Notes under the pieces: generated by a model
Told to the model about the DNA's origin: nothing
The model's input: only the letters and a program-made list of their open reading frames with translations
Database searches by the model: none
Assembly (NCBI GenBank): GCA_022925895.1
Contig: JAKSYS010000424.1
Span: 1-53,835 of the forward strand
DNA length: 53,835 nt
Direction of reading: 5' to 3'
From: Fragilaria crotonensis
Taxonomy: Eukaryota; Bacillariophyta; Fragilariophyceae; Fragilariales; Fragilariaceae
Translations under genes and position numbers: made by a program
Shown here: positions 17,055 to 44,128 of the stretch, piece after piece
Layout: each line of letters starts with the position of its first letter
How positions within the stretch are numbered: the stretch's first letter is position 1

Positions 17055-19965
17055 CTACCGTTGAGGCGCGAAGTATGTCCTTATCGATCGTACGCCAGCG
17101 ATGGCCGTATTTTTAACACGCTTCATACTTTCTTTAAAAACCGGTGCGTTCACCGTCAGCCAATTCTGTGTGACCCAAGTCGGCCGCTGCAGCTGATCCT
17201 GTATATCTCGGCATAATAATTCCTGCACCCTTGGCTCGTAGTGATTTCGGTTATCATATGCCGCGCGAAGTTCCCGTTCAACCTCTTTTCTTTTTGCCAA
17301 ATTTTGAGCGGCTTGATCGCATCCATGTAGCTCTTCGTTTCGTACTTTCCACAATTGCATCCATTTTTTCCATATGTGTGATATCATCTTCGTTTGCCAC
17401 TTTTCGCCACTACGTTTATCGTTCTTCCCGTGCTGACTCCTCTCTCTTGCATAGTAATCATCTTGCACTCTACTCCATTCAGTCCCGAACCTCCCGTTGA
17501 ATAGCTGCCTCCAACCTATAGCATTCTGTTGTTGGATCACCGTACGTACGTCGGGATGAAATTCGTTTGCATTGAGGACCAAATCATCGTCTTCGGTCAG
17601 CATCCATTCTCCGATTGCCTCTCTCAATAAATGTCTTAGCGGTCGATACGTATCAACTTTTGTGTGAAAACCCTCGATCGAGGACATAAATTTCGCTCTC
17701 CAGAGCTCTCGACTTTCTGCTGTGCATCGAATTATGTGATCTCGGTCTTCTCGTGTGGACCTTTGACACCCAGGACATAGTCGTCTCCCGTTGTCCTGGC
17801 GATTGAGATTCTTAAGAGTTGGCAGGCACTCGTGGACCATTTTTGTGAGTTGAAGTCGATGTTTAATATGTTTGCGCATTGATTTACCGTGAGCACTCCA
17901 GTTGATCATCTGCATGGTGCTTTCGTCGAAATTGTTCTTCGTTTGGATGTATTGTTTCAATGGTTCACTTGTTGCTCGTCGACGGATATCGGGTCCATAT
18001 TTCGCCGTTCTCGTTCCTTCTGGATAAACTAGATAAGCTCCGGTGTGCTTAGTCATCAAAGCATATGGTCGAGCCTGACCGTATTTCTCCTGATACTCTC
18101 GTGCCATATCATCCGCGTCCACGTTGAGTTGAGCATACAAATCGAGTCGGCTATAATGGCGTTCGCGATCTTGATGGCCTTTCACGTACATTAACTTGAC
18201 CATTGGTAATTGGAGAAGTGATTCTCTAATCTCTTTCAAGAGGTCCCATTCTGGAATCATCGGATTTAGCGGTGTGATATCGGTGGGGAGAGTGGTCGGA
18301 GTAGCAGCTGCTGGACCGCTGTTTTTATCTCGACCAAAGAGCGTGTCGAGCATACTCTGACTATCTGTCGCAATCGTCCCTGTCCATGGACCGTCCATCG
18401 CTGTAAACTCTGCAAGCCTGATAAGGAACCTCAGTATCGACAACATTCCACTGCACTCAGCCCGGTACGAATCCATTACACTTCCTCGCGATGGACCCAT
18501 TCCTTTTGCCGCTCTTTCCCCGTTAGTGTTGCTCAATGTCCATCCGAATGCTCCGTCTGTGCCGAACTTTTCTGACCCATCGCTCCCTGCAGCAAAGGAT
18601 TCTTGTAGTTCGAGGCATATAGTATACGGGTCCACCAAAAGTTCTGTGTGTTCTAACAGATCGATTTCCCACGCTTCCAGAGTGTGAATATAATCCTTGA
18701 ATGTTGCAATTGGTTGCTGCTGGCGTTGTATAATGGCCGTCCGATGAACTAAACGCCAGTGCGCGTTGCCGCTCGCCTCGATTTCTACCGGAACCGCGTT
18801 GGCAGGAATGTCCTGTAACTTGATCGTTCTCCTCCCTAACTCAAAAATCTGCGATCGACCTTTACGGTATCTGTGGTATTCTCCAGCTTGCGTTCGCACG
18901 TATAACTTGTCAGAAGTTGCGTATGAGAAATGTTCCAGGCGACTTCTCGAATGGGGAAGTTTCCAGCGCCCTAAAGGCTGGAGGAGGATGCCATTTTCAT
19001 GACTCCATAATTTATTTGCTCTTAACCATAACCGCCACTCAGCTTTTTCCGGTCTTTCTTGATGTGCCGTCAACCACTTAGTCTTAATACTCATGAGAGA
19101 AGTTGTTCCTTGCAATTTGGCATTATCGAGACGGTCGCCTGCCGATGTTGCCAAATCCGCAATTGTCAGCGCGCCGAGATACAACCGGCAATAGTTCAGC
19201 TTGCGAATCTCTGCCTCCGTGAATTGCTTCGAAGCGATAACGTGATCCATTATGTATGAGTCGTGCTCTCGTTCCATTGGTGCTAGCCCTGTACTGTCGA
19301 CCTGGATTCTTGCGTCGATGTGTGACAAATATTTCCGAAGGGATAACAACCACCGAGATTCAAGATGCGTCAACTTTGTATGGACGTCTTCTAAGATAGG
19401 AGTCGATATTCCTGCGCAGTATTGGGCCCACGCCACAGCGCATCGCAGAAGTTGTCCTGCTTGTGTCCGAAGTCTCCAATGGTAGAGGAAAAGGTGTATT
19501 TGTCCTATTCCTTGTTGGTCATACAGACGACGAAAATTTGCTCCGCCTAACTCGATCGGCCCGAATAAGATTTCTCTCTTTGTATTCCGATTGTAACCGC
19601 ATTTTGCAAAGATAATTGCCATGGCTTTCCTCTGGATGTTCGTGAGTTGGGCTTCGGTAAAATGTGAGTTCGCTAACGGATATCCGATGCTTGGCAGATA
19701 GCATGCGTAGTAGTAAGTCCACGCTTCTTCTCTTGTGAGCGTGCATGTACGCATGAATTCCACTGATTCGTCGCTCTTTCTCTTCAGCTGTCTGTATTGC
19801 TCCTTTTGTGTCCCAGCTGGCTCTTTGTAATGTCCGAGTGTTTTATGAGATGCGTACGGCGATAAGTACTTGAGTCGTTGTTCTTCGCCGTGGATAGAAT
19901 CTGTGACCGTGACTCCTGCATATTTTATCGGTTCTGTAATGAGAACTGGAGAACCTTGTCCTGAA
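17055..19965 (-). CDS. LINE-A2 RT C-terminus, connector, RNase H and zinc motif
   Basis: This frame is open from about 19965 (GQGSPVLITEPIKYAGVTV) to the stop at 17055, with no in-frame ATG at its head, so it belongs to the RT ORF at 19843-21387. That ORF leaves this frame after YHVMAWQF because two bases are missing relative to WKFTVHGAPIL in LINE-A1. Content: LSPYASHKTLGHYKEPAG, a connector with GPIELGGANFRRLYDQQG, and RNase H with AAGSDGSEKFG (D), SYRAECSGML (E), IATDSQSMLDTL (D), KGHQDRERH and NVDADDMARE (last D). A zinc motif CPGCQRSTREDRDHIIRC follows, and the protein ends RSIRTYFAPQR. All RNase H catalytic residues are present. Confidence 0.85.
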
Positions 19966-21387
19966 TTGCCATGCCATTACATGATAAGAACATTTGCTCA
20001 ATTCCAATGCACCCCCCGTGGAGCTCAGTAGATCGGACCAAAGTTGTGCATTTGCTTGCATCTGATGTAACATAGCTTGTCGTGACTGTTCGGTTTCTTC
20101 AGCTAAAAACTGATTCGTTTGTCCATTGGAATCGTCGACGAATCCCACCATTCCTAAATTTGCGTGTTCGGATGTATCCGGTGAATAATATTCTGCTTTG
20201 AAAGCTTTGGCATCATAACAATCGTACAGGATGCTCGATAAGAAACACCAGATAACTGGTGAATTTCCGCTTCCTTGCCCTGTTCCGTAAATGGGATTAG
20301 AATGACAATGACTGTAGCTCTCTTCTGCAAGTCCCAAATCTGTTCGTATCCGGTATTGGGCTTGTTGCAACGTATTTGCGTTTACCGATGTGACCGTTGC
20401 TGGAACTCCGAATGTTCTGCTTGTCACCATTGCGAGATTTGGTACTATCCTATCGTAGCACGCAGTCGCGTCGTAATTGGTCTGAATCAGTGTTTTCCTT
20501 GTTAGCCGCGAAATTTCCATTTGTAGCTCTTCTATAAATACCGGATCGAACGCGTTTCGATTGGGGCGTGATCCATACTGACCGTCGTTCAGCATTCTTT
20601 TCTTCTCTGCTCCGTAGAGTGCTGATCGCCATTTCAGACCCATGGCGAGGTTGTAATCAGCCTCGTATAAATGGATTACTCGTGTGCGATGGATTCGGAT
20701 ATTTCCCGGTTCTTTGAAAATAATTGTATTTGCAACTTGATGCCATCGAGTGAAAGAATATCCGCGTAATAACGCGTAATTGATAAGTTTCAGATGAACG
20801 TCTACCAATTCTGCTTGCATTTGATCCAATTCTTCGCGTTGTCGTTTGTGGTTATCATCCTCCTCCTCTGGTATAAACGAGTAAGCGTGTTTCGCTATCA
20901 GTGTTTTATAGTGTCCGAGGTGAAGGCCTGATGGGGATGTCGTCGTCGTTTCCCTCCAGATGCGTAATTTTGCTTTGAATTCTTCCTCATCGATCTTCGG
21001 GCACGTATGTGCTGATGCTACTGCTTCCGTTTGTTTGAGATGTTGCAAAAGAATCCCCACGTTATCGTCCAACTCGTCGCGCGAGTATTCGCCTCGAAGA
21101 ATTGCTTCAGTTGAGCTGCTTTGTCCCGTGAATCCTAGGTCGTCACTGAGCGGTGGGACAGTGAATGGTGTGCCATGCGCTTGTCCGAAGTGACGTCTGT
21201 TACGTTCTCGTAGATGATGCACAATCTCTGTTGGCACATCGATTTGTCGCCAATCTGTGCACTGATTTGGATCATCTTCTGTGCTAGCTGGTATCTCGAG
21301 GCGTGTGACACCTGTCTTTTCCTTGGTGAGTCGGAGGCGTTTAAGCTTTTCGAATAGGTTTCTGATAGCTTCTCCTTTTGCAAACAT
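19843..21387 (-). CDS. LINE-A2 reverse transcriptase ORF (broken near its 3' end)
   Basis: The start is the ATG at 21387 (MFAKGEAIRNLFEKLKRL), directly preceded by an in-frame TAG (TAGATG). LINE-A1 has an ATG at the equivalent site, which supports a real ORF start. RT landmarks: TTTTSPSGLHLGHYKTL, MGLKWRSALYGAEKK, NYDATACYDRIVPNLAM (motif A), YGTGQGSGNSPVIWCF and GFVDDSNGQ (catalytic DD at about 20131-20136). After GALELSKCSYHVMAWQF a 2-base deletion moves the frame, and the last 35 or so residues before 19843 are out-of-frame sequence. The RT lies 26 nt after the endonuclease stop and in a different frame, unlike typical LINE ORF2 proteins, where EN and RT are fused. Confidence 0.87.
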   Translation of the reverse strand: MFAKGEAIRNLFEKLKRLRLTKEKTGVTRLEIPASTEDDPNQCTDWRQIDVPTEIVHHLRERNRRHFGQAHGTPFTVPPLSDDLGFTGQSSSTEAILRGEYSRDELDDNVGILLQHLKQTEAVASAHTCPKIDEEEFKAKLRIWRETTTTSPSGLHLGHYKTLIAKHAYSFIPEEEDDNHKRQREELDQMQAELVDVHLKLINYALLRGYSFTRWHQVANTIIFKEPGNIRIHRTRVIHLYEADYNLAMGLKWRSALYGAEKKRMLNDGQYGSRPNRNAFDPVFIEELQMEISRLTRKTLIQTNYDATACYDRIVPNLAMVTSRTFGVPATVTSVNANTLQQAQYRIRTDLGLAEESYSHCHSNPIYGTGQGSGNSPVIWCFLSSILYDCYDAKAFKAEYYSPDTSEHANLGMVGFVDDSNGQTNQFLAEETEQSRQAMLHQMQANAQLWSDLLSSTGGALELSKCSYHVMAWQFRTRFSSSHYRTDKICRSHGHRFYPRRRTTTQVLIAVRIS

Positions 21388-21413
21388 CTAAGGCGCTTCC
21401 GTTGCATCGGCTT

Positions 21414-22994
21414 TCAGTGTTGAAGCTCTAACATTTCGATTCGTTTTCGTCTCTCACGGTCGCGTCTCTGATAACTCTCTTGAACAATCGCTTTGACTTC
21501 TCTTTTTGCCTCTCTTAACATAACTGAACACTCATGTATTGTCTGCGGTAGCTCGTCGACCGAAGTGATGTTTCCCCATTCTTGGTTGATTGTTTCTGTA
21601 TTCAGTATTCCAGTACGTTTCGAAGATATCCACTTTTGCAATACTTGTACTTTTTTTCTCGCCTTGGCCAATTCTGCTGACCAGTGTGGTGCATCGAACC
21701 GTGGAATAACTTTTTCTGCTGCGAGGCTTGCGGCAGTTACATCTTTGTCAATCCGTTCTGCAAAAACGTGGCGATTTCCGGGTCGGTCAAGTTGTTGTAT
21801 ACGCTCGAAGACGTTGTGATCTTCCAGAAATTTGTGTTTAGCTTTGATGTAAGCGGTTACTTGTTGCAGGTTATTGGATTTTAGAACTCGTGGTTCAAAC
21901 TTTGCCAACGGTTGAATTTGAACTCCAAACAATTGGTCAATTGCGAAGTCGACGTAATAAGCCCGATGATCTGTTGGAAATTTTGCGTTGAACGCTTCGT
22001 AACCTGCATTGACCACCGACTGTATTATGCCCGGAGTTGCGAATGCGTAATCGAGACATTTGTGTCCTCTTGAGTATGTCGCAGGTAGCGGACCTGAGTG
22101 TTTATTGCTCATTACATTCGTGAGTTCATTGTCATCCAGTATTTTTTGCATTGCGTCGGGATCTGAACCTATGCACTCGTTAAAATCTCCGAGTAGAAAG
22201 ATTTCCTCGTTTCCTTCGCGGCATTGCTTTAGATAATTTCCCAAATCTCTGCGGAAAGCCACCCTCGGGGCGGTGATGTTGTCTTGTGCTTGAATGAGAA
22301 GACTTTGTTGTTGCGATGCGGCTGTTATCAATCCTTTGCCTGGGAAATCTGTTACTACTTGGTATGCCGAGATAATTGAAATTATTCGTCCTGTCCGTCC
22401 TTGGAGTTTGTGGCAAACCCATCGTCCCCATCCGTCTTGGTATACTGTTCTTACGCGTCCTGTTATATCTCCTACTGTCATCATAAACGTTCCGCCCGGT
22501 TTGTAGTGATTTTTGAATGCTACCGGTGTATTGGAAAAATTTATTCTTGATCTCTTCCAATGCTGTTTTGTTGTGTCGTATAAGATACTTCGAACAGTCG
22601 ACTGAACAGTGTCCAAATTGTGTTCTTGTCCGCATATAATGTCCGCTTGAACTTCTCTCATTGCTGCGCAATAATGATCGAATTGTCCTCCGCGTCGATC
22701 GAGTGTGAAACCGTTAACGTTCCCTGAGTAAACTCGCAACGTGCCTGCCTCCTTTGATTGTAACTCGTCTCCCCAGTATGTGTTCGTTCTTTGATTTGCT
22801 CTTGATATGTGTATTTCCCGGTGTGTTCTCTGAGACTCCGTACTGTTTTCTGTTCGCTGCGTAAAAATTCTCCTCCACTCCGTTTGTGCGATTGTTAATT
22901 GTTCTGTGTTCGTGTGTCGCCTTGTTGTTTCCGTTGGTGTGCTCTGTCTTCCGAGAAGTTGTGTTTCTCTTACGTCTTCCTGATTTTCAATCAT
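21414..22994 (-). CDS. LINE-A2 APE-like endonuclease ORF
   Basis: A 526-residue protein with exonuclease-endonuclease-phosphatase motifs: VYSGNVNGFTL (N92, N94), ADIICGQEHNLD (E124, metal site), SIISAYQV, IFLLGDFNECIGSDP, LDYAFATPG and a terminal TDHRAYYVDF (D-H). It would nick target DNA to prime reverse transcription. The Thr/Gln/Arg-rich N-terminal 80 residues are unassigned. The C-terminus after about residue 370 is helical and charged (RRDRERRKRIEMLELQ). Its ATG overlaps the TGA of the upstream coiled-coil ORF as ATGA (22994-22991), which suggests termination-reinitiation. The stop at 21414 separates it from the RT. Confidence 0.9.
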   Translation of the reverse strand: MIENQEDVRETQLLGRQSTPTETTRRHTNTEQLTIAQTEWRRIFTQRTENSTESQRTHREIHISRANQRTNTYWGDELQSKEAGTLRVYSGNVNGFTLDRRGGQFDHYCAAMREVQADIICGQEHNLDTVQSTVRSILYDTTKQHWKRSRINFSNTPVAFKNHYKPGGTFMMTVGDITGRVRTVYQDGWGRWVCHKLQGRTGRIISIISAYQVVTDFPGKGLITAASQQQSLLIQAQDNITAPRVAFRRDLGNYLKQCREGNEEIFLLGDFNECIGSDPDAMQKILDDNELTNVMSNKHSGPLPATYSRGHKCLDYAFATPGIIQSVVNAGYEAFNAKFPTDHRAYYVDFAIDQLFGVQIQPLAKFEPRVLKSNNLQQVTAYIKAKHKFLEDHNVFERIQQLDRPGNRHVFAERIDKDVTAASLAAEKVIPRFDAPHWSAELAKARKKVQVLQKWISSKRTGILNTETINQEWGNITSVDELPQTIHECSVMLREAKREVKAIVQESYQRRDRERRKRIEMLELQH

Positions 22995-31282: not shown

Positions 31283-31383
31283 TTACCTAACTAACTCCGT
31301 GCGAAACCCAAGCGGACGTTTATTCAAGATCACGAGTCGAGACGTTTGGCAAGTGTTCCTTGACCAGGCGAAGGAGGCGCCCG
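31283..31383 (+). repeat. Direct repeat, second copy
   Basis: Matches 31149-31249 with a few changes (for example DHAKEAP becomes DQAKEAP). This copy runs on into the gag/RT frame. Confidence 0.85.
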
Positions 31384-32845
31384 TGCCCAACCTCTGCTGC
31401 CGATATCACTTGAACGGCGTTTGCAACGAATCTTGCTTCTTCCGGGCGTCGCATGTAGCCTTGACCGGAGAGCAGACGACGGCGCTCGGCAAATGGATCG
31501 AGTCCTGCAGGACGCGCATGCCCAGTCGGCAGCCGGCGGACGCAGCAAAGAAACCCAAACTAGTAGGCCAATCTGATAACGCGTACAGTTTTCTTCCCGC
31601 CGCTGTACCGGGGAATTCCCCGGACCCGATCATAGACGTGGCCAACAGCCTCCTTGCACGCTCTGCAGCCGCACGGCTGTACGCTTCGACGCGGGATCCG
31701 AGCGCACCCACGCTCGTCTATCCTCGTCACGTCGCGCGGGCCGCTCGCTTTCCGACGGACCCTTCGCTCGCTTCGCTCGCCCCGCCCGCTATCACGAGTG
31801 CTCGCCCCCCGCCACCACGTTTCCTCGATCGATCGCACTCGCTGTTGTCCGTTTCGCGGACGCCCCCTCGGTCGGCGACGATTCCGACGCGCACTCTCTC
31901 GGTGTCGACGCAGGAGCCTTCGGCTGCAACCCCCCAACGTAAGTCATTCGTCCCCCTCCCTCGTTTGCCCCGCGGCGCAGTTTTTCCGTCGTTGCCTCGA
32001 TCGCTTCTCCCGGACGTTTTTCATGCAATCCTCGACGCCACACAACCACGCACGCACCCCACCGCCTTCGTTTTCGGGTGGACGCCTGCCGCCGCAGCAA
32101 ATAACCTCGCCGTTCTCCGACGCTATGCGGGGGATCTCCGCGTCACTCTCGTTGCACAACCTTTCTCGACGCTGTCGCCCGGTTCGGAATTCCGGTCGGC
32201 CCACATACTGGCGCCGCTGCTTTCGCGCCATCCTCTGTGGCCGGCCTTCGCCGAGCGCATTACCGATGGGGCAGAGTTCCCCCTTCTCGACATTCCTGAC
32301 GATGACCGTCGTGCGGACGTCGCCGCCAGCTTGGCCCGCGGCAATCATAAATCGGCCCGGGGCCACGAGGTCAAGCTGCTGGAAATGCTTAAAGACGAGG
32401 TTAAACGGGGATGGCAACTTCCGCTGCCAAAGGAGGCGGCGCTCGAACTGCCTCACTGCGAGGTGGCGCCACTGGGAGTGGTGTCGCAGACGACCTTAGG
32501 AGCTGATGGGACAAAGGAGACGAAGCTCAGACTCACGCATGATCAGTCGTTCAATGCGACTCGGGGAATGAGAAGGAGCGTCAATGATAGGGTGGACGTG
32601 GACAGGCTGACGCCAGCACGATTCGGACAAGCGTTGCTACGATTCCTTCACTACACATGTAAGCTGAGGAGGAAGTTCCCAAGCGATCGGCTGCTGATCA
32701 CGAAGGTGGACTTCAAGTCAGCTTATTGGCGGGTTCATCTCAAAGCCAAGACGGCTCTGAAGTCAAGCACTTGCATTGCGGGAATGTTGTTAGTCGCCTT
32801 GCGTATGACATTTGGGGGGGCTCCAAACCCGTCGCAGTGGAGCGA
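31299..32845 (+). pseudogene. DIRS-like gag/RT, N-terminal part
   Basis: There is no ATG at the head, and an in-frame TAA lies just upstream between the duplicated segments. A cysteine motif CRYHLNGVCNESCFFRASH (C-x7-C-x3-C-x5-H) near 31400 resembles the zinc motif of DIRS gag-like regions. A Pro/Arg-rich linker follows, then RT: KLRLTHDQSFNA, LLITKVDFKSAYWRVHL (catalytic D471) and LRMTFGGAPNPSQWS. One extra base near 32842-32846 then moves coding to the next frame (ISEVIADLANDLV). The frame stays open to 32987, but that tail is out-of-frame sequence. Confidence 0.8.
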
Positions 32846-33600
32846 TCTCGGAGGTGATTGCCGACCTCGCGAACGATCTCGTGAGGAGAGACGATTGGGA
32901 CCCCTTGGCGTGGAGCGCTCCCCAACAAGGAGTCCTGCGGACGAGCAGAGCGGTGGACAACGACGAAGGGCATGTTCATCCAAGTGACGAATTCGGGAAG
33001 GCTTTCGCTATGTCGGTCAATGATCCAGTGGACGACGGTCTGGCAAAATTTGAGTGCTACCTGGACGACCTGCTGTTCGGCGTCTTTCGAGACCAAGACA
33101 TAGACAAAGCGGAGGCGGCGCTACCTCTCGCTCTGCACCTGGTTGGACGTCCCGTTGACGAGCGAGCGCCTGAATCGTTTCCAAGAGACGACCTTCTGGC
33201 GGCGTCGAAGTTCCTCGCGGAAGCGAAGGCGTCGGAGCGAAAAACGATCCTCGGCTGGGATGTCAACACGCGGTCGTTTAAGGTCTCACTCCCGGGGGAC
33301 AAACGACTAGCCTGGGTGAACGAGCTCCGACGGTTGAGGTCACTGCCGGGACGAAGGGCCCACGCAAAAGAGTTGGAGACGACGATTGGTCGGTTAAACC
33401 ACGCAGCCTACGTGGTCCCGAACTCGCGACCGTTCCTTGGGCGCCTTTATCGAGCCAGCGAACGAGCCCAAGCTTGCGGATCAGTTAGGCTCTCTGCATC
33501 CCAGGTCGACGATCTTGAGTTGTGGGAGGTTTTCTTGGACGCCGCGGCTAAAGGGATTTCAATCAATTGCCTTGTTTTCCGCTGGCCGACTCGGATAGTA
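32846..33600 (+). pseudogene. DIRS-like RT C-terminal part and start of RNase H
   Basis: It continues the RT in the shifted frame: EVIADLANDLV, then the catalytic FECYLDDLLFGVF box (YLDD at 33058-33069) and RKTILGWDVNTRSFKVSLP, thumb and connection. It stops at 33601 after INCLVFRWPTRIV. The expected next residues (VDACPQGMGGYG) lie directly downstream in a frame disturbed by a 19-bp duplication. Confidence 0.8.
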
Positions 33601-33603
33601 TGA

Positions 33604-34110
33604 GTAGACGCTTGCCCCCAGGGAATGGGAGGCTATGGCCTCCAGAGCGGAATATGGCCTCCAGAGCGGAATCGCTTGGCGCCTGCTTCTGCCGCCCGAC
33701 TGGATCGGTCGCGGATCCTTGAACTTCCTAGAGTTCCTAGCGGCGCTGGTGGGCGTTTGGGTGGAGCATCAGGTCGGAGGGCCGTGGGCCGAGGACGACG
33801 TCCTTCTTTGTCAAGGGGACAGTTCCTCAGCTACCGGGTGGATCGCCCGCTCCAGCTTCGGGGACGATTGCCCCCTCCATTTAGCCATAGCTCGGACGAT
33901 GGCGCGGTACATGATTGACCATGAGATGACGCATTATTTGCAATGGTTCCCCGGCAAGGAGAACTCGGTCGCCGACGTGCTGTCTCGGGATTTCGACTTA
34001 GAGGACGCCGAGGTTGTCGAATTGATTAAAAGGAAGTTATCTCACCACATGCCACAGGATTTTTGTCTTGTTCCTCTCCCGCAGGCAATCGTTACGGACG
34101 TTGGCTCGTT
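33604..34110 (+). pseudogene. DIRS-like RNase H
   Basis: VDACPQGMGGYGLQSG (first D) is followed by a 19-bp tandem duplication (33634-33652, 33653-33671) that changes frame. The frame from 33635 then gives AWRLLLPPDW, SLNFLEFLAALVGVW (E), LLCQGDSSSATGW (D) and HYLQWFPGKENSVADVLSRDF (last D region). The reading frame stays open to 34501, but coding potential passes to the recombinase frame after about 34100, as in DIRS elements with overlapping ORFs. Confidence 0.8.
33634..33671 (+). repeat. 19-bp tandem duplication in RNase H
   Basis: TATGGCCTCCAGAGCGGAA occurs twice back to back. It adds 19 bp and shifts the frame. Confidence 0.95.
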
Positions 34111-35319
34111 GCTGCAGCTGCTGCCCAGGACTCAGCTTTTACCATCGAAACCCGCGCCCAGCGTGATCGCAGCTGGGGAAGGTTCCAGAGTTTCCTCCAT
34201 GCGATTGGGAACAGGAACGACCCTTTCCTCATCCGCCTCCAGCCCGAGGAGCGAGTCGAAGTCCTCACATGCTTCGCAGCAGCGATCCGGGAAGTATGGA
34301 CAGGAGGTACTGACGACGGGCGGGATGCCAGAAGGACTGCGACGAGTGCCGGAGAACCTCTTGGAGCTTGCATTGAACGGAAGGTGGGCACAGTTCGTGC
34401 CGCCATCGACGGCGTGGTACAGACCTATCGGGCTAACAAACTTAGCAGCCCAGCACATGACTCACGAGGACGACTCGAACCCCTTTTGGCCGCGCAATTG
34501 AGGGGCTATGCACTTGACGACCCAGAGCCCAGCCAACGGCAAGCGCTGCCGGCGGCTGTGGTGGAGGTGGTGGCCCGTGTGAAGACGACCGAGACGCATC
34601 GAGCTATTGGCCAGCTTGTGACGGGAGCGTTCTTTTTCGCTATGCGTTCTTGCGAGTACTCCGAGGCGAGCGGATCTCGGAGGACTAAGACAGTGCAGAT
34701 AGGCAACATCACCTTCCGACGCGGGGGCGATACAATCGAGAGCTCCAATGAATCGGTTCTAGCGACGGCAGACACGGTCTCAATCACATATCGGACGCAA
34801 AAGAACGGAGACCGCGGGGTAACCGTGACGCAGCATCGAACGAGGGCGGAACCTGGGACCGGGCTGTGCCCAGTCCGAGCCTTAGCTGGACTTGTTTCGA
34901 GGATATCAGCTTACAAGCTTGACGCCACTAAGTGGAAAGAAGTCGCGACGCGCCCGATGAACCTGGTGGTAACTTCCGGATCGGGCGCGCAAGTTACGAC
35001 GATTACAGCAGGGGAGGTGTTACAGCACCTGCGAGCGGCCGCCATTCAGTATGGAGAAACGCGCCTAGGTTTCCCCGCTAGCAGAATCGGGACGCATTCA
35101 CTCAGGTCGGGCGCAGCGATGGCGATGTTCCTTGCAGGTGTACCGGTGGAGACGATTCAACTGATCGGGCGCTGGCGGAGTCAGACGTTCATGCGATATA
35201 TTCGAATGCAGGTGCAACAGATGACGAGAGGGGTCGCCGACGAGATGACGACGAACCCCAGCTTCTTCACGATCGTCATGGGAAAAGACCGAGGACCCGA
35301 CACTCGAGAGACGCCCTAG
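34063..35319 (+). CDS. DIRS-like tyrosine recombinase
   Basis: An uninterrupted 418-codon frame without a clear ATG at its head; it overlaps the end of the RNase H frame. Numbering from 34063: R195 in FFFAMRSCEYSE, H345 and R348 in THSLRSGAAMAMFLAG, W371 in IGRWRSQTF and Y379 in FMRYIRMQ. These form the R-H-x-x-R-(H/W)-Y set of tyrosine recombinases. The N-terminal part (ETRAQRDRSWGRFQSFL) looks like a SAM-like core-binding domain. It would insert circular cDNA without making a target duplication. The catalytic set is complete, although the RT of this copy is broken. Confidence 0.87.
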   Translation: MSCSSPAGNRYGRWLVAAAAAQDSAFTIETRAQRDRSWGRFQSFLHAIGNRNDPFLIRLQPEERVEVLTCFAAAIREVWTGGTDDGRDARRTATSAGEPLGACIERKVGTVRAAIDGVVQTYRANKLSSPAHDSRGRLEPLLAAQLRGYALDDPEPSQRQALPAAVVEVVARVKTTETHRAIGQLVTGAFFFAMRSCEYSEASGSRRTKTVQIGNITFRRGGDTIESSNESVLATADTVSITYRTQKNGDRGVTVTQHRTRAEPGTGLCPVRALAGLVSRISAYKLDATKWKEVATRPMNLVVTSGSGAQVTTITAGEVLQHLRAAAIQYGETRLGFPASRIGTHSLRSGAAMAMFLAGVPVETIQLIGRWRSQTFMRYIRMQVQQMTRGVADEMTTNPSFFTIVMGKDRGPDTRETP

Positions 35320-35326
35320 GTTCATC

Positions 35327-35381
35327 GGTGGCCGCCCGGAGCCCTGGTTACCTCCTGGACAGCCCGGAGCTGTGGGCCACC
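35327..35381 (+). other. Inverted repeat after the recombinase stop
   Basis: GGTGGCC (35327-35333) and GGCCACC (35375-35381) can pair around a GC-rich interval that also holds two GCCCGGAGC copies. It lies 8 bp after the YR stop. A role in transcript ending or recombination is speculative. Confidence 0.45.
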
Positions 35382-35419
35382 AAAACCAGGTCGACGAGGA
35401 AAGAGTGGTGAAAGTGGCG

Positions 35420-35572
35420 CCCCAGTACTGAGGGAGAGGGAGGCGTCAGCGGGGAGAGGAGTGTTTCCTAGGACTTGATTCCGACGCCATAGCTAACGTT
35501 ACAACCTACAATAGGAAGCTATCGCGGAAGGAGCACGACACGAACGAACAGAACTCGAAGGCAGAGCCTTCG
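35420..35572 (+). repeat. DIRS-like 3' direct repeat, first copy (B1)
   Basis: It begins GCCCCAGTACTGAGGGAGAG and ends GGCAGAGCCTTCG. It matches 35712-35865 with very few differences. Confidence 0.9.
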
Positions 35573-35711
35573 TGGGATGTACGCGAGGAAGGACGACTGA
35601 CAGACGGAGGCTCAACGTCAGGAGTTGAGGCAGCGATCACAATCGCAACGAAAAGGAACGACGAAGACGAAGACTAGCTCTAGTAATTAAATTCCCACCC
35701 ACCCGCCCTTA

Positions 35712-35865
35712 GCCCCAGTACTGAGGGAGAGGGAGGCGTCAGCGGGGAGAGGAGTGTTTCCTAGGACTTGATTCCGACGCCATAGCTAACGTTACAACCT
35801 ACAATAGGAAGCTATCACGGAAGGAGGACGACACGAACGAACAGAACTCGAAGGCAGAGCCTTCG
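35712..35865 (+). repeat. DIRS-like 3' direct repeat, second copy (B2)
   Basis: Matches 35420-35572. The homology to the element ends at CCTTCG (35865), which I take as the right boundary. Confidence 0.9.
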
Positions 35866-38085
35866 ATGCCTAAAAAATCAGCATTGTGTTGTGGTGGCCT
35901 ACGCTGGCAATTTTGGTTCAGTTTGTCTGAACGTTTGGTAGCGTGGGGGTTGATTTCCCATTCGTCACAGGATCGCATATGTAGAATTTGTACCAACCTT
36001 AAAGTAGGTTGATTAGAACCTGCAGTACATAACGGAGTGTGAAGTGTGAAGTACTGTGCCGGTATCTTGATTTTGTGCTCATATTTTTGCCACCGAGTAG
36101 GCGTAGTATTAAATGTACATGTCGCAGAATTAAGTACGAAGTGTACGTTACTAGTCACTTCCTCGTCTGACAGTAGTTTTTAATTTTTGGGGTGCAAACG
36201 AACAACAGTGCGACAGCAAATACACGTACATGTAGCCACACATTGACCTGGTACAAGTAATGTAGATATGACGCTACTACGGTTGGTACCTAGTACTCGG
36301 ACTACTTGTACCAGTTACCTGGGCTACGAAGTACTTGTACTCGGACACAGTGATCGTACCCCAGGTACGCTGTATCATACAAGGTATTGGAGTAAACTCC
36401 AGACTAAGTCCAGACTAAAGTCCAATTTTGTTGATTTCTTTGAAAAATCAATTTCAACAGGCATCTGACTTCATGACAACTACTCCAGTTCTCAGTACTG
36501 TATAACTTGTCCTCAAGATCATGTGAATGAAAGTTATGATAGCTTTCAGCTTCTGTAGTACTTGAAATCTTGCATTTCTTAGTGCCACTCCTCAGAAGCT
36601 TGGCCCACGTACCACTTATCATCCTTAGTAGTACAGGATAGGCCTGTGCTTAATACTAGGGTGCAAATATTTTCTGAGTGTCAGCACTCACACACTTTGT
36701 GCACTATTAGTAGTAAACTGGAACCCACAGGAATTCTTGTCAGTGGTATGGGTTTCGTGACATGTGGAAGGCTTTTCAACAACCCCTCATGCTCTGCTGC
36801 TATGAAAGAAGAAATAGCAATAAGCATATCCAAGGAACTGGAAGTTATTGTATCAGAGTTGGAGTCCCGCCTGGACATTGGACACCATGTGACAAGAAGG
36901 CAAACAACAAAAATCATCATCAAGTGATCAAAGTGATTGATCCAGTTCTTGAGGACTGTTGACATGCTGATCTTGTAATCACATGCCATTGTCATGCTAC
37001 TAAGATATGAGGCCTTTAAAAGAACCAACCTTCCTTTGCTTCCTCTACTGAAGTCTGTGCAGTTATGCTTCTTTGCAGCTCCAATATGGAGACAGCAAAC
37101 GAAACCAGCAGCAGGCACGGCAAGCAACTAGTATGTTGCTCACTCAATGGTCTAGAAAATTTTCAAGGCATCCTCAACTTAGTCCAGTTTATATCTCATT
37201 CTCTTAATTGAATTTACTAAAGTGACCTTTCAATTATTACTTCTTGTTTATGTCACATAACAAGTCATGCTGATACCCATGCATATCCATCAGCCAGCAC
37301 CTTGCTTATCATTGATTCATGGGCATGCTCTGCTGAAGGAAGAACATGCTCAAGTTGCTAGCTGATGATGTGGTTTTATGCTTGAAATCTTTGATATGTG
37401 CATGCATTGCATGCTGGGACAGGATTGCTTGGACATCAGCATGCATTCTTGGACAGAACAACTACACCAGTCAACATGCATGATGGTATCTATCACTGTT
37501 GCCTGTTGCAAACTTAGTAGTCACAAAGACTGGGATGCCTGCCATCTTGCCACATTGTTTTGAGAACAGTAGAAAGCCCAATAGAAGCACAACACATGTC
37601 ATATATATTGATGGCAACTTGTGCTTTATCTTCAGAACCTGGATTGGGCACTCTATATGCTGTCACACACAACCATGATTGCATCAAGTCATCATGGAGT
37701 GATTCATAGAAGTTGCTTTGTTTTGCAAAGTCAACTTTGTCTGAATCCTTGACATTTTCTATGTTGTCCTTGAGGTCATGAAGCAAACAAGATACTGGCA
37801 GTAGATCTTTTTCTTAGTGCAGCAAAGACAGAGAGGAGGTTGCATGTAAGATGTAACAGATATTTGTAAAAATCCAATTTACTTGCACTGTTATGTTTTC
37901 AACATAACACTCAGCATGTAGAGATTTGTTAGTACTGCTGGCAACAGTATGTTACTGTCATCATCTGTAGTACTTCTAGCACGCTGACGACTCCACTGGC
38001 CGCCGTAATTATTCCGCACGCTACTTGTTATACTGTACTACCTCACTCTACTACTCTACTACTCTACTAGCAGCAGAGAGGGCAA
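35866..38085 (+). other. Gene-poor spacer, GTAC-rich near 36240-36380
   Basis: No convincing gene. Minus-strand frames at 36681-37127 and 37514-37786 are short and match nothing I know. 36083-36125 resembles, in reverse for its first part, the motif-rich repeat at 38266-38555 (TTTTTGCCACC, then GTAGGCGTAGTATTAA). Confidence 0.4.
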
Positions 38086-38555
38086 AAATCGAGTGCAATG
38101 ACTCGGTGGCAAAACGACAATACTGAGAGTCGCAGCCGCACCGGTGGGTGGCAAAACGAATATACTGTGTAATGTAGGGGCATGACCAGCAATGTCTTCT
38201 GGGACTGCGCAATGCATTGCGTACTGCACACCCCATTTTTTTTGCATCGGAGTCCCGTATTCGCGATCGACTAATTCGAGTGGCAAAAACACGGATCGAG
38301 TGGCAAATCAACGCACTGTTCACGTAAACAATTTGCCACCCTACGTGCCACCAGGGTGGCAAAAATAACTGGAAAATTTTTGAACGATACTGTAACCAGA
38401 GGCACCGTATCTACAAGTGTCTACAGACCCATCACGTACACACATACTGACCAGAATGGAAAATACCACTTCGGTGGCAAAAAGCAATAAATGTGCCCGT
38501 ACCCATTTTTTTTGCAACCGGTTGTGCAACCCCGTAGGCCTAGTATTAATCGTAC
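38086..38555 (+). repeat. Motif-rich repeat copy A (GTGGCA type)
   Basis: The core, 38266-38505, is homologous to 41247-41475. It contains GTGGCA at 38280, 38300, 38356 and 38474 and the inverse TGCCAC at 38334 and 38346. Two more GTGGCAAAAC sites lie upstream near 38106 and 38149, and a TTTTTTTTGCA pair lies near 38236 and 38506. Clustered short motifs in both orientations are typical of subterminal regions of DNA transposons; no ORF or clear terminal repeat was found. Confidence 0.6.
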
Positions 38556-41000
38556 AAAACGTAGCCAGATGTACCAAGTCCACGCTACTGGATCAATTCC
38601 TAGAGTATGCATCACCCCGAGCGCACATTTACCGTACTGAAGGAGAATATCAAAAAATTAGACCTCTTGCTTCCTGAATAACACCTGCTGTCTTGGTACT
38701 TGGTACTCGGTACTCCGTGTACGTAGTACATCACTACACATCTCATGCTCTACACGTCTGCTGTAGTTGTGTACCATACATCACGTTATATGAAAACTAC
38801 TCCAGTACAGACCTACCGGCATGTTGACTTTATTGTCGTGGTACAGTAGTATGTACCAGGATAACTATACTGAACGCAAATGCAATAAAACAGTACCAGG
38901 TACTCGAGTACCTGGTAATACAGTATTATTTATACTCTGCTTTTTCTTTGTTTGTTTCTCTGTAGGATTGTGAGCTTATTTGTTGTTTGTCAACACTCCA
39001 TTATAAGTCATAAATCAATCAAAGATAAGAACCAGTAAGTCTTTCAAAAATGATAATCTAAGTAAATTACACTGCAAACATAATCATAACAGCCTGACCC
39101 CAGATTACTTTCCTTGGTGTAGATCTTACACAATGTAGTCTTCATTTCTCAAAAGACATGTATGCCTTTTTGGATCTCTCAGTAGAGTTGTGCATGCCAG
39201 GAAGTTTATCCTGGTCTTCCATTCTTGGTTTTTCAAAGCAACACCAGCAGCATATATTCTAGAGCTACGGTCATGGCTTATCTACTATCTTTAAATTCCC
39301 ACCACAGTAAGACTGGCTGCATCAACAGAAGTACTTGAGGTCTTGGCAAGTACCAAGCTCCAAGGCACAAATGCACAAAAGAATTGGCTCATTGTACCAT
39401 GGCATCAATAACAGATGCATTACAAGCAGCATCACACCCCTTCAAGTCTTTGTGTTTGAGTCTTCCTCCCACTTGCACCACTCTCAAGAACCAGTGTTCA
39501 CACATCTGATACCAGAATCAATCACACCCACCAGCCACAAGTACATAACATTTCTGGTGAGGGTTTCCTACATGGTCATATGGCCCACCCTCCACTAATC
39601 TCTTGATTAGCTTCTGTGTGAGAGAAGCTGATCCATAGTACTGTCCACAAGATAGCAGAGACCCTTGAAACAACCCTTCTTGTGAGCTGGCTCTAGTGAT
39701 GCTGGTTCATGGTTCCACTACATAGAAAAAGAGGGTGTTGTGTACCTTGTTGTTCTCTCTGTTAAGAAGCAGGGGGACAGACAAAAGTCTGTATAAATAC
39801 AGCATTGAAGCTTGAAAATCATGATTTCCACAAGACTAATGTATGTGACAGCCAGGTTCAGTCATTGTTGACAATTTTATGCAAAAGGTCATACAGGAGG
39901 GTTGAACTGGAAATTGGAAGTAGTTAGCTAGTATTCCTGAGGTGGTGTTGTGACAGTCAGAGCTGAATGTAGGATAAGAAAATTATTTGGAGTACAGTAC
40001 TTTATTACTCCAAGAACTCCAGCAGTACAAGCATTGACAGAGTATCTGGACAAATCAAACTACCACAGTACCTGGACAGATTGAGAAATTGGTGATTTGA
40101 TTGTATTCATTCAGGAAGATTTATGTAGTGACTACCCAGCATATTGTAGTACACCCTAAAACACATGGTGTTACTGTACTAGTAGCTTGTTTTTGGTGAG
40201 GAGTGACCGTTCACAAGTTAGAACACATTAAATTTGGGATTTTTCCTGCTCTTGAGAATTTTATCTTTGTAGTTTAATTGCTGACTACTGTAACAACAAG
40301 TACATGAAATCACAGTGTTAAAGTAGTCAGACTGATGTTCCAGCAAGCTAGTGAAGGTGTGAGGATCCACTACATACGTTTTGCCAAGTCTAACGTCACC
40401 AGCAAGAAACAACTCAACAGGCATGGTCACAGTCACAGTCACTTTTGAAAATAAATTTTGTTGACAACTCATTTTATCCTATGGCACATTCCAAAGAACT
40501 ACCAGCACTGGCTACTAATTTAATTGAACCAGTGTCAGTTGCAAAAGCATGAGTTTCACCACAAACTCCAAGATATTCCTGTTGTTCAGATCACCAGCAA
40601 TTCGAATGTGTTCCTTTCTGAGGACTCAAGAACCACTTCCACAACAGCAGACTCATAACAACACATACATTTGACATGAATGTGTAACATGCAAAAAGTC
40701 ATACCCACTTGATTTTGTAAATTGGACTCAATTTGAGTGACTCACCTGTCCTGATGCCATGTTAAGGAAAACTCAAAGAATGAAGACTTGACAAATCATA
40801 TCATCTTCATGATTTTCCATCACAATAGCTGCATAGCATACCCATCATCTATCTATTTGTTCAACCTTAAAGAAAACTGTCAACAAGTGTGCCTTTAAGG
40901 CAAAAGAATTCTAATCCAGACACCATGTTTATATGCTTGTTCTTCCTTTGCTGGTTGACGCTGTACAGGAGTAGTAGTGAGGAACGGACCGGAGCACTGG
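38556..41000 (+). other. Gene-poor spacer, partly GTAC-rich
   Basis: 38680-38930 has a dense run of GTAC tetramers and a 24-bp palindrome. 38930-40990 is AT-rich without recognisable coding or repeats. Confidence 0.4.
38894..38917 (+). repeat. 24-bp perfect palindrome
   Basis: Each half is TACCAGGTACTC and its reverse complement, centred on CTCGAG at 38903-38908. It would form a hairpin or bind a dimeric protein; no neighbouring feature explains it. Confidence 0.9.
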
Positions 41001-41148
41001 AGTAGTGGAGTAGTGGAGTAGTGGAGTAGTGGAGTAGTGGAGTAGTGGAGAAGTGGAGTAGTGGAGTAGTGGAGTAGTGGAGTAGTGGAGTAGTGGAGTA
41101 GTGGAGTAGTGGAGTAGTGGAGTAGTGGAGTAGTGGAGTAGTGGAGTA
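41001..41148 (+). repeat. 8-bp minisatellite (GTAGTGGA)n
   Basis: About 18 nearly perfect copies with one GAAGTGGA variant near 41050. The 8-bp unit gives an eight-residue repeat in antisense translation, which is not a protein. Confidence 0.95.
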
Positions 41149-41246
41149 CGGTAGTACTTGGCTAGAGTACCCGGTATCTGAGAACTCGTGAAAAACAGGG
41201 TTACCCCAATGCACCCTTACTTTGGTACTGTACCTGGTACTGCTGT

Positions 41247-41475
41247 GATTGACTAATTCGAGTTGCAAAAAACACGGATTGGGTTGCAAACCTACGCCGT
41301 TCTCTCGTAGAAATTTTGCAACCCTACGTGCAACTGGGTTGCAAAAGATCCTGATGTTCCGCACTGCGTTTTTGTCACAGTACCTGCAAGTTCTACAGGT
41401 CCCTGTCGTATACACATACCGGAGGGAGTTGAAAATACTACTTCGGTTGCAAAACACCGGAAATGTACCAGGTAG
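41247..41475 (+). repeat. Motif-rich repeat copy B (GTTGCA type)
   Basis: It aligns with 38266-38505, starting at GACTAATTCGAG. GTTGCA occurs at 41272, 41283, 41338 and 41446 and TGCAAC at 41317 and 41329. These are the six positions that carry GTGGCA/TGCCAC in copy A. Confidence 0.8.
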
Positions 41476-41658: not shown

Positions 41659-41717
41659 GAGAATGCCTAATGCACTAACAATTAAGGCGCTAACTAATCG
41701 CTAACCCAATCAAAATC
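41659..41717 (+). repeat. MULE left terminal inverted repeat
   Basis: It begins GAGAATGCCTAATGCACTAA and ends CCCAATCAAAATC. Confidence 0.92.
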
Positions 41718-42688
41718 CGCGGAGACGTCATCATTTCGAGTCTCGTCGTCACAGATTTTTTGCACCCCCGTCTTTAAGTGAATCAAGAAGTCATTGTTGT
41801 GTGAAGAAGAATCATACCGATGTGAATACAAATAAAACTTTACGCACATGTAAGATCATGTCATATCACATGGAAAAAAATCGGCAGTTGATGCCTTATG
41901 CATATGACATGTGAAGGATACATATACTCGTATACATATCCTCGCGATACCTGTAGAATTTATGCTATGTATCGGTACATACGGAGTACACATTCCTCTA
42001 CAAGACGAAACGACGACCACGCCGTTGATGACAAACCTACATCATTTTTATACTGCAAGTCTACGAGCCCAAAGCAACGAATAACGGCGTGGTCCAAGAA
42101 CTTGTACGAACCCAAGAAACGTTCTCATGCACAGTTGCGACATACTGTAATCCATACTGGAGTAGGATGGCTTTACGCGTACCTGCTACTGGACTCGATT
42201 TAAAAACAGTACGCCGATACCGGTATGATACTAGGTAGAGCACTACGGTGTTGTTGTTGTCATCATCCTGCATCAGAAATGCTTGGAATGTTGATCAAAA
42301 CCAGAAAGCTTCACCCCATTGTCACAAATACTGACTACAATTGCTACATGCACTACAGACACAGATTGCAAGCAAAGATGAAAGGATGAACTACAGAGAT
42401 ATTTCATGCAGATTGTCTGCAGTTGAGGGTCCATGGTCCATGGTCCCAGAAGTAACTTTTTGTGAGCAGTGAGCAATATCAAAAGTGTGCGAACGTGTCA
42501 ACCGTAGTACTCCAGTACTTATATGATTCAAATTCTACGCACCGTTAATTTTGTTCCCAAAAAATGCGGGTCAGATTTATACTATTATCCATATCCTTTG
42601 ATTGTTCATCGGATTTGAATCTAATTGATATTTTTTGAAGAGGTCGATGACCCTTTTGGGGTTTGGCAACCCCACCCCAAATCTGGAA

Positions 42689-42748
42689 GATTTTGATTGG
42701 GTTAGTACTTTAGTTAGCGCCTTAATTGTTAGTGCATTAGGCATTCTC
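42689..42748 (-). repeat. MULE right terminal inverted repeat
   Basis: Reverse complement of the left repeat. The outer 39 and inner 17 positions are identical. Confidence 0.92.
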
Positions 42749-42910: not shown

Positions 42911-44128
42911 ATGAGACCAAAGAATCATCTTCTCGTTCCATTCATTTTCAATGTGATTCTTTCGCTGGTGTATTCATTATACGTCAGTGAAAATATATGG
43001 AGCGCCTCTCGTCAAACGGACTCCGGTTTTGCCGCGTCCGAAAATGTGCCTCCTGCAGGACAAACCATTATGCTCAAGACTGCAAATGTAAGAGAAATGG
43101 AGACGAGAAAGGCCAATCAGCCACAAGCGTCAATCACGCAGCAGACACTTACTTCAGATGTACCTTTCGATAAAATCCTTGTTGTTTATTCGGGACCGAC
43201 CGACCTCATGGACCTGAACATCAGGCCTGAAGAAATCTCAGATGCTCACAAGAAGATGGAATTGTATCGGCTTAACTTCGAATTCTTCTTACGAAGCGGC
43301 ATTCATTGCCAAACCCATGATACATTGATTGTTGTGACGTATGTTGTCAAGTCCAAATATCAAACGCAAATTGACGAATTGCATGACAAATGCCGTGCCA
43401 ACTACGGAAACTACGTTAGGTTGATAACACGCAACAATACCTGTTTGGATCTGGACTCAGTACGCGTCGCAATTGAATACACAGGTCAAGGTAACCGTCC
43501 CGCAGTAGTGACTAATCGCAGTACGACGTCCACCAAGATCGATGCTACTTCTGCGTACTACGACTATTTCGTATACATCAATTGCGGTGTCACGGGGCCA
43601 TCGTCGCAATGGGCCAACCGGCCCTGGACTAGCGTCTTTCTGGAAAAACTCCGCGATGGAGTCAAAATGGTCGGCTTAACCATCAACTGTTATTTTCAAG
43701 AAAATCCTCATGCTCAGTCAATGATGTATGCCTTGGACCGAGAAGGACTCCAGGTCGTTGTGGACGGTGGTGCTATATACGATTGTACGAAACGACCAGG
43801 ATATTTTGGCATCGATGTTGAGGCGTTACAGGACAAGATTGTATCCGGATACGAGCTGGAGTTGAGTAAACTGATTTTGCAAGCCGGATACGGGATCTCT
43901 TCTGTCGTGCGACCCATAACCCTGTTTCGGCACAATCAAACGCAATGTTTGAATAAGTATGGCAATGATACTCTCAATGATGTATGGTTGGGCGAAACAC
44001 TTGTCGAGTATTTTGGAAGAGTCCCATCCTTGGACGAGGTGATTTTTTTCAAGACATCCAGGATCTTGACTCCCGAGACCGCCGATATCATTAACTTTAC
44101 GCTGGAAGTGGATTGGAATTGGATTTAA
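42911..44128 (+). CDS. Type II membrane protein, probable Golgi glycosyltransferase-like
   Basis: An intact, intronless 405-codon gene. The N-terminus has a short basic cytoplasmic head (MRPKNHL) and a hydrophobic anchor at about residues 8-26 (VPFIFNVILSLVYSLYV), a type II signal-anchor layout. The lumenal part holds FDKILVVYSGPTDLMD, DYFVYINCGVTGPSSQW, WTSVFLEKLRDGVKMVGLTI, QSMMYALDREGLQVV and a PGYFGIDVE stretch. The 'YINCGVTGP ... VKMVGLTINC ... QS ... DREGL' pattern resembles algal and protist type II proteins of glycosyltransferase character, from memory. There are several cysteines and N-x-S/T sites (NRST, NNT, NQT). I cannot name a substrate. This is the only apparently undamaged host gene in the window. 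Confidence 0.75.
   Translation: MRPKNHLLVPFIFNVILSLVYSLYVSENIWSASRQTDSGFAASENVPPAGQTIMLKTANVREMETRKANQPQASITQQTLTSDVPFDKILVVYSGPTDLMDLNIRPEEISDAHKKMELYRLNFEFFLRSGIHCQTHDTLIVVTYVVKSKYQTQIDELHDKCRANYGNYVRLITRNNTCLDLDSVRVAIEYTGQGNRPAVVTNRSTTSTKIDATSAYYDYFVYINCGVTGPSSQWANRPWTSVFLEKLRDGVKMVGLTINCYFQENPHAQSMMYALDREGLQVVVDGGAIYDCTKRPGYFGIDVEALQDKIVSGYELELSKLILQAGYGISSVVRPITLFRHNQTQCLNKYGNDTLNDVWLGETLVEYFGRVPSLDEVIFFKTSRILTPETADIINFTLEVDWNWI

Follow-up and report, generated by a model that had tools for sequence, protein, structure and literature searches.

One-base difference at the end sites of two putative sister Crypton-like transposon families in the diatom Fragilaria crotonensis, with a possible shift in recombinase specificity

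The stretch considered here, called the window below, comprises 53,835 nucleotides of the diatom Fragilaria crotonensis (assembly GCA_022925895.1, contig JAKSYS010000424.1, positions 1 to 53,835 of the forward strand). It contains two related repeats, A and B, each of which carries a core with six copies of a hexamer, four forward and two inverted. The hexamer reads GTGGCA in core A (38265-38494) and GTTGCA at the matching positions of core B (41247-41466). These twelve hexamers had been pointed out in an earlier note, made from the sequence alone, and all of them were recovered with the type, orientation and correspondence that it described. The cores that it delimited are also retained, with their right ends moved from 38505 and 41475 to 38494 and 41466, because beyond AATGT the flanks are unrelated among the copies of a family unless another element follows. 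The sites are listed here together with two additional A-type sites upstream of core A, which have counterparts in three other copies of the genome (C840, C232 and C394).

38265-38494, forward strand: A right-end core with six sites
38280-38285, forward strand: A site 1, GTGGCA
38300-38305, forward strand: A site 2, GTGGCA
38334-38339, reverse strand: A site 3, GTGGCA, inverted
38346-38351, reverse strand: A site 4, GTGGCA, inverted
38356-38361, forward strand: A site 5, GTGGCA
38474-38479, forward strand: A site 6, GTGGCA
38106-38111, forward strand: extra A-type site upstream of core A
38148-38153, forward strand: extra A-type site upstream of core A
41247-41466, forward strand: B right-end core with six sites
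41262-41267, forward strand: B site 1, GTTGCA
41283-41288, forward strand: B site 2, GTTGCA
41317-41322, reverse strand: B site 3, GTTGCA, inverted
41329-41334, reverse strand: B site 4, GTTGCA, inverted
41338-41343, forward strand: B site 5, GTTGCA
41446-41451, forward strand: B site 6, GTTGCA

Written out, the A-type version of the motif is GGTGGCAAA and the B-type version GTTGCAAA; the motif versions GGTGGCAAAA, GGTTGCAAAA and GGTAGCAAAA differ solely at base 3. For the alignment of the two cores, a 1-bp gap was set by hand between sites 4 and 5, which keeps both in register. Fifty mismatches are then counted in 213 aligned columns. Mismatches occupy 44 of the 177 columns outside the sites and 6 of the 36 within them, the latter all at base 3 of the motif. 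The hypergeometric chance of this six-site pattern is 5.4e-8, or 3.2e-7 if any single motif position is allowed, values that count columns rather than independent events and that describe one phylogenetic contrast between two families. The same motif base has indeed changed at all six corresponding sites, and the P value of 5.4e-8 makes independent neutral mutation a poor account of the difference, as had been proposed.

Judged from the ends of their copies, the cores are the right ends of two non-autonomous transposons placed head to tail, B lying directly behind A with a single shared TGT.

36055-38494, forward strand: A element, predicted non-autonomous and Crypton-like, left end TGTGCCGGTA..., right end ...AAATGT
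38492-41466, forward strand: B element, predicted non-autonomous, left end TGTGCCCGTACCC..., right end ...GAAATGT
38492-38494, forward strand: TGT common to the A right end and the B left end, putative crossover site
36088-36093, reverse strand: A left-end site, GTGGCA type (TGCCAC in 16/16 A-type left ends found by pattern)
38513-38518, reverse strand: B left-end site, GTTGCA type (TGCAAC in 28/28 B-type left ends found by pattern)
38525-38530, reverse strand: second B left-end site, GTTGCA
40998-41148, forward strand: 8-bp minisatellite (TGGAGTAG) in B, adjoining its core

When the copies are oriented alike, the right end is sharp at ...ATGT and is followed by unrelated flanks. Left ends were located by genome searches with 36060-36260 (A) and 38495-38695 (B), and 28 short stretches were read. 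Thirteen of the 14 A stretches begin with TGTGCCGGTA or TGTGCCAGTA, C597 deviating after TGTGCCAG, and all 14 B stretches start with TGTGCCCGTA. A left-end pattern retrieved 46 places: 16 of A type, all with TGCCAC, 28 of B type, all with TGCAAC, and two look-alikes. The left end of C597, missed by the pattern, also has TGCCAC. The G/T difference between the families is the same at these left ends (16/16 and 28/28) as in the right-end cores. The look-alikes, with TTTTTTGCTAC (C308 and C818), were not retained as a third family: they have common flanks and no site cluster, and the reversed-pattern control also gave one match. Seven places with TTTGCAACACTATTTGCCAC (2 mismatches) were set aside as well; the one that was read overlaps an unrelated-looking open frame, and the reversed pattern, used as a control, matched 10 times.

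Head-to-tail arrays of two to five B units occur at C504, C37, C372, C509 and C562, and a tandem pair of A at C449; in these arrays neighbouring units share a single TGT. As read from the ends, TGT stands as a short direct repeat at both ends, with no terminal inverted repeats and no ordinary target site duplication. When the flanks of A and B are pooled (27 distinct left ones, 24 distinct right ones), they yield a target consensus T-A-Y-[TGT]-A-Y-N-N-R-T-A whose positions carry up to 1.5 bits; positions elsewhere stay at or below about 0.3. Each family fits this consensus by eye. Other classes of repeat were considered. A non-coding satellite or a long terminal repeat was rejected: the two ends are unlike each other, and the roughly 2.9-kb spacing corresponds to one B element in head-to-tail arrays. 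An element with terminal inverted repeats, a Helitron or a transposase making 3-bp target site duplications was judged less likely, the off-centre TGT in TAY-N7-RTA and the recombinase frame described below fitting a tyrosine recombinase better. In the B arrays of C509 and C372 (L077, L088, L042 and L032), the left flank is common over the stretch read and the right flanks are different, a pattern that points to duplication or exchange after insertion.

Both cores were used to search the genome of the organism (62.1 Mb in 881 contigs) for copies. In each search 40 matches were scored, of 49 candidates for A and 46 for B, and the copy counts are lower bounds. The tally of sites takes full-length copies, one row per place, to the exclusion of partial copies (for example L014, L016-L020, L030, L057 and L058). 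At least 14 A copies, the window's included, carry 84 sites, of which 77 are GTGGCA. The remainder in the 14 listed copies consists of four GTAGCA, one GTTGCA and two sites broken by indel placement alone, both in L006 and whole in another reading of that copy. At least 25 B copies, the window's excluded, carry 150 sites, 136 of them GTTGCA and none GTGGCA. Among the other sites of the 25 listed copies, 10 show a difference of indel placement in an A run alone and four are otherwise changed (GTCTCA, GCTGCA, GTTGCC and GTCTTGCA). With the window's copy, the B tally becomes 142 GTTGCA among 156 sites in 26 copies. Searches by pattern give a similar picture. A pattern fixing the surroundings of the two inverted sites has 40 exact matches, namely 14 C/C, 25 A/A and one C/T (C840). 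A three-site pattern with base 3 left open finds 40 clusters (none with the reversed-pattern control), of which 24 are of B type and 16 of A type, one of the latter (C112) having T at one of its three sites. By this exact three-site pattern, no GTCGC or GTAGC family was found.

The sites are more constrained than their surroundings. Among 13 distinct A cores, variation is seen in 59 of 194 non-site columns and in none of the 30 site columns other than base 3 (Fisher 7.5e-5, to be taken as a guide since the copies share ancestry); three of the six base-3 columns vary. L010 and L013 diverge from the A copy of the window by 9-10% in the core; for the interior the figure is about 18-21%.

The earlier note had suggested looking for autonomous relatives in the flanks, and such candidates exist. 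At C840, C394 and C232, A-type ends enclose long stop-to-stop frames, located near the core on the opposite strand: 667 amino acids (aa) at C840, 858 aa at C394, running through the core, and 301 + 452 aa at C232. In all three the site cluster lies directly upstream of the frame. With some reservation, these frames can be assigned to a tyrosine recombinase of Crypton-like elements. Their C-terminal part matches GCR1_C, a domain found in all seven proteins of this genome tested, with E values from 0.015 to 5e-7, four being over the cut-off. In a nine-protein alignment, HxxR is present in 8/8 rows reaching it and the tyrosine column in 9/9, which we take to be the catalytic signature of tyrosine recombinases. 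A genome search with the C840 protein gave at least 82 matches (70 of 288 candidates scored). PF12012 (DUF3504, the animal Crypton recombinase) had no match in this genome, nor in the control genomes. Silicon-transporter matches numbered 19 in the genome, 18 of them over the cut-off, and the control set gave one bacterium, below the cut-off. These matches point to a diatom as the likeliest host; some further silicifying eukaryotes also have transporters of this kind. The recombinase-like gene is the only one recognised inside A-type ends, further frames there not having been searched. Larger A elements were considered as autonomous forms and rejected, the Copia-like frames of C51 and the transposase-like frames elsewhere, of C10 and C648, being read as nested insertions. 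By eye, these insertions are Copia-like (C51) and transposase-like, with 934 aa (C10) and 771 aa (C648), in elements L089, L096 and L097.

The A copy of the window itself retains a trace of such a gene:

37604-37684, reverse strand: decayed recombinase N-terminal fragment in A (tblastn, C840 protein residues 14-40, E 1.5e-4)

N- and C-terminal recombinase fragments are kept in L002-L005 and L008-L009. Because such fragments remain inside them, the short A copies look like internal-deletion derivatives. The copies in the window encode no recombinase themselves: the six fragments of A and B searched have no Pfam match over the cut-off (best E 0.018). Nor, by eye, is any clear codon periodicity apparent in the substitutions that separate the A copy of the window from ten others.

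When the regions upstream of other recombinase frames in this genome were scanned, the closest lineages proved to have the same layout with other versions of the motif. In the part compared, the C262 and C840 proteins are 54% identical. The C262 element has GGTTGCYTTT at the places matched by layout to sites 1, 2, 3 and 6 of the right end, and the left end of this element, TGTGCACGTA, bears two more motif sites; the flanks read TAC|TGT and TGT|ACAGGTA. Ten copies of this family were found, 10/10 cores having four GTTGCYTT and none GTGGCAA or GTGGCYTT, and 8/10 right flanks fit ANNNGTA. The crossover and target code seems unchanged in A, B and the C262 family. More distant are the C205 and C216 proteins (49% and 41% identity to the C840 protein), with GTGGAATTT-like sites and a right end GGTGGAATTTCCG...TTTTGT. 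At L101 (C205:32721-37250), recombinase-bearing Crypton-like copies stand in head-to-tail tandem with the common end TTTTGT. The state of the frames varies with the site version. For GTGGC those of C840 and C394 are long; for GTGGA that of C205 is without its first 92 residues; for GTTGC-YTT that of C262 is in pieces, with one stop. No GTNGCAAA cluster came to light when L104 and L106-L109 were scanned for motifs. In L107, about 1.5 kb upstream of the C416 recombinase, GTCAGYAA and CTGACCGTCAG are densely clustered and may form the site set of another family.

Outside the sites, the right ends of the A/B, C262 and C205 lineages share 44-51% identity. Global alignment gives 2.7-7.2 s.d. over shuffles for five pairs with C262 and C205b, and 20.9 for A-B. 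For the C262 and C205 lineages, right-end homology is carried chiefly by sites 1 and 6 and the sequence beside them. In a midpoint-rooted tree of ten proteins, all of this genome, A groups with C262 (100/99) and then with C205 (100/100); the B right end is nearer to A (0.69) than to C262 (0.51). Base 3 being G in A, T in B, T in C262 and G in C205, it would have undergone two changes or more, provided that B groups with A.

Considering these properties, the explanation that we favour, with a probability of roughly two in three, is that A and B are sister non-autonomous Crypton-like families, that the end sites are bound by the elements' own recombinase, and that its specificity has shifted in concert with the sites through a labile base. 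The recombinase would bind the repeated GGTNGCAAA end sites, its C-terminal GCR1_C-like domain being the likeliest point of contact. These sites would act like the arm-type sites of phage attachment sites, or as autoregulatory promoter elements, or both; the promoter role is conceivable because the recombinase frame begins a short way downstream of the cluster. Cryptons are thought to leave as circles and to integrate by tyrosine-recombinase site-specific recombination. Here, recombination by the Crypton recombinase would take place at TGT, via a circle whose junction would read ...AAATGTGCC.... The head-to-tail arrays sharing one TGT and the target consensus are indirect signs of such circles and of site-specific integration. 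With base 3 only loosely constrained, the preference of the protein at this base would shift, and all sites of the element would follow with the matching change, possibly by way of mixed states such as those of C840, C394, C232 and C112; the crossover and target preference (TAY-TGT-AYNNRTA) would stay alike meanwhile. The earlier note had already proposed a DNA-binding protein whose specificity changed. That proposal gains from the location of the sites in transposon ends, which elsewhere flank a recombinase-like gene, and from relatives with other motif versions; binding to the sites, the binding domain, the circles and the change of specificity itself are what we infer from these observations.

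Several observations weigh against this explanation. The earlier note asked whether copies are uniform in site type and had named mixed copies as refuting its proposal. The A and B types do separate, but 4/14 listed full-length A copies are mixed at base 3: L011 (C394) and L012 (C232) have one GTAGCA each, L015 (C840) has two, and L013 (C112) has one GTTGCA. We read these mixed copies as a sign that base 3 may be a tolerant base through which a switch can pass. As for the protein, the A-type GCR1_C scores of 16.0 and 17.5 bits are below the Pfam cut-off of 23, the Phage_integrase match is weak and restricted to 3/7 proteins, and no meaningful sequence relative of the recombinase was found in PDB. 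Searches by tblastn in the surroundings of the B copies, for the most part 1.5 kb to either side, revealed no B-type recombinase; the sole recombinase match near B copies is downstream of the L056 right end, outside the element, and belongs to another lineage. B being without a found protein, the changes of protein and sites are unmatched for the A/B pair, which itself provides the single phylogenetic contrast mentioned above. Finally, some sites of the relatives are irregular: GGGTTTC stands at site 2 in 6/10 C262-family copies, GTTTC is found at two further site-like places in the first four C262-family copies, and the C205 sites vary (GTGGAAT, GTGGATT and GTGGGAA).

Other explanations may be envisaged. 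The sites could be promoter elements for an activator, encoded by the element or by the host, without any role in recombination. Yeast Gcr1, Msn1 and Hot1 are transcription activators. They share the GCR1_C domain (PMC3212892, for the part of it that deals with this domain), and the position of the cluster, immediately in front of the recombinase frame at C840, C394 and C232, fits a promoter. However, the motif is also present at the opposite, left end in A and B alike, a long way from that promoter, and it is kept in copies without the gene, so that we consider this possibility unlikely, though still to be reckoned with. It could also be imagined that one protein reads both versions, base 3 being unrecognised and its letters fixed by ancestry and drift. 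In line with this, base 3 is the sole site base that varies within family A, as G, A or T in three of six columns. Sites within one element should then differ, yet G occurs in 0/150 B sites; in addition, the left ends agree with the cores of their family (16/16 and 28/28), and T is found in the four GTTGCYTT sites of 10/10 C262-family copies. An unrecognised base 3 thus appears improbable.

As in the VANDAL elements of Arabidopsis, the motif could alternatively be recognised by an anti-silencing protein and serve escape from silencing rather than recombination. VANC21 motifs do exist in C-type and T-type versions in different subfamilies, according to the sections of PMC5735166 that describe them. 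Against this, the recombinase-like gene alone was recognised in A-type ends, within the search described above, and the sites occupy fixed matching positions rather than expanded tandem repeats, which leaves this role distinctly improbable. Concerted copying, which the earlier note had allowed for, would spread one site version by short gene conversion and would homogenise the sites quickly. However, every site has retained flanks of its own in A and B alike, and conversion tracts of about 10 bp would be needed at each of them; for this reason a copying mechanism has very little chance of being correct. Compared with these alternatives, a recombinase that binds the sites and has changed its preference at base 3 accounts for the largest part of the observations in our opinion.

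VANDAL elements belong to a different transposon class, in which a VANC-type gene is associated with a motif cluster, and Tn1549-type elements have a relaxed target. To judge from the portions of PMC5735166 and PMC10398659 concerned with it, the VANDAL/VANC system shares with A and B an element-encoded sequence-specific protein (predicted here), clustered non-coding motifs, and single-base motif versions between subfamilies for which coevolution has been proposed. Unlike the A/B sites, which differ in place, VANDAL motifs multiply by tandem-repeat formation (PMC5735166, same portions). VANC/VANDAL may be the closest published parallel to the site switch that we have seen. Within the Cryptons, CryptonF elements of fungi and oomycetes have the tyrosine recombinase (YR) and GCR1_C in one protein, short direct end repeats without terminal inverted repeats, and a proposed circular intermediate (PMC3212892, in its account of that group). 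All of this resembles the elements described here, GCR1_C being in the same protein in 7/7 cases. The differences, on the same account, are the diatom host, an end repeat of TGT instead of 4-6 bp, the head-to-tail arrays, and the clustered sites in family-specific versions (PMC3212892). CryptonS elements, the diatom case included, are said to be without GCR1_C and to have mostly TATGG termini in the corresponding part of PMC3212892, so that the GCR1_C match and the ends TGTGCC.../...ATGT do not fit them. The word "subterminal" is absent from PMC3212892, and no comparable site cluster was found by title or abstract in the open-access literature on Cryptons or on transposase-motif coevolution, which does not prove its absence.

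Two other groups of tyrosine-recombinase elements offer partial likenesses, as far as the relevant passages of their sources go. Tn1549-type conjugative transposons have a circular intermediate (predicted here), a crossover region of 5-7 nt and an arm-binding domain apart from the core-binding and catalytic domains, but Tn1549 is bacterial, and GCR1_C is C-terminal here (PMC5871717). Starships, with their captain recombinases, have direct repeats of 2-12 bp and degenerate targets such as TTAC(N7)A; unlike A and B, they are giant cargo elements, and no switched site cluster is described for them there (PMC12153272).

Other putative elements occur in the remainder of the window. Frames of reverse-transcriptase type, followed by a tyrosine-recombinase-like frame, occupy 31299-35865 and end shortly before A; a 154-bp direct repeat lies at 35419 and 35712, behind the recombinase-like frame. 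By eye, we take this to be a DIRS-type element. Long polyprotein-like frames at 1135-6870 and 19843-22994 resemble, also by eye, a Copia element and non-LTR retrotransposons. On the other side of B, 41659-42748 is a 1.09-kb element with perfect 39-bp inverted ends; relatives of these ends are found directly beside B-like cores in C689 and C387 (L057 and L058). A 405-aa open frame at 42911-44128 has no Pfam match at E up to 1.

Beyond the A/B pair, it is tempting to imagine that the arm-site code has been rewritten in place more than once in one Crypton clade, across nearly all sites and both ends, with the crossover and target code fixed. The rewritten positions would be base 3 (G/T) and bases 5-8 (CAAA, CYTT and AATT). 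This extension is weakened because some C262 and C205 sites are irregular, and we hold it only tentatively, the odds being somewhat against it. If true, the recombinase would use two separable DNA codes, a conserved one that says where to cut and a fast-evolving one that says which elements are served, and the latter would prevent mobilisation between sister families. It is an old open question how the many sites of a DNA-binding protein, and the protein itself, can change jointly without loss of function. One genome here offers several versions of one site set at matching positions, and the mixed A copies indicate a possible path through a tolerant base. If the assignment is correct, Cryptons with a GCR1_C-like domain would also gain a further host group and a defined target consensus.

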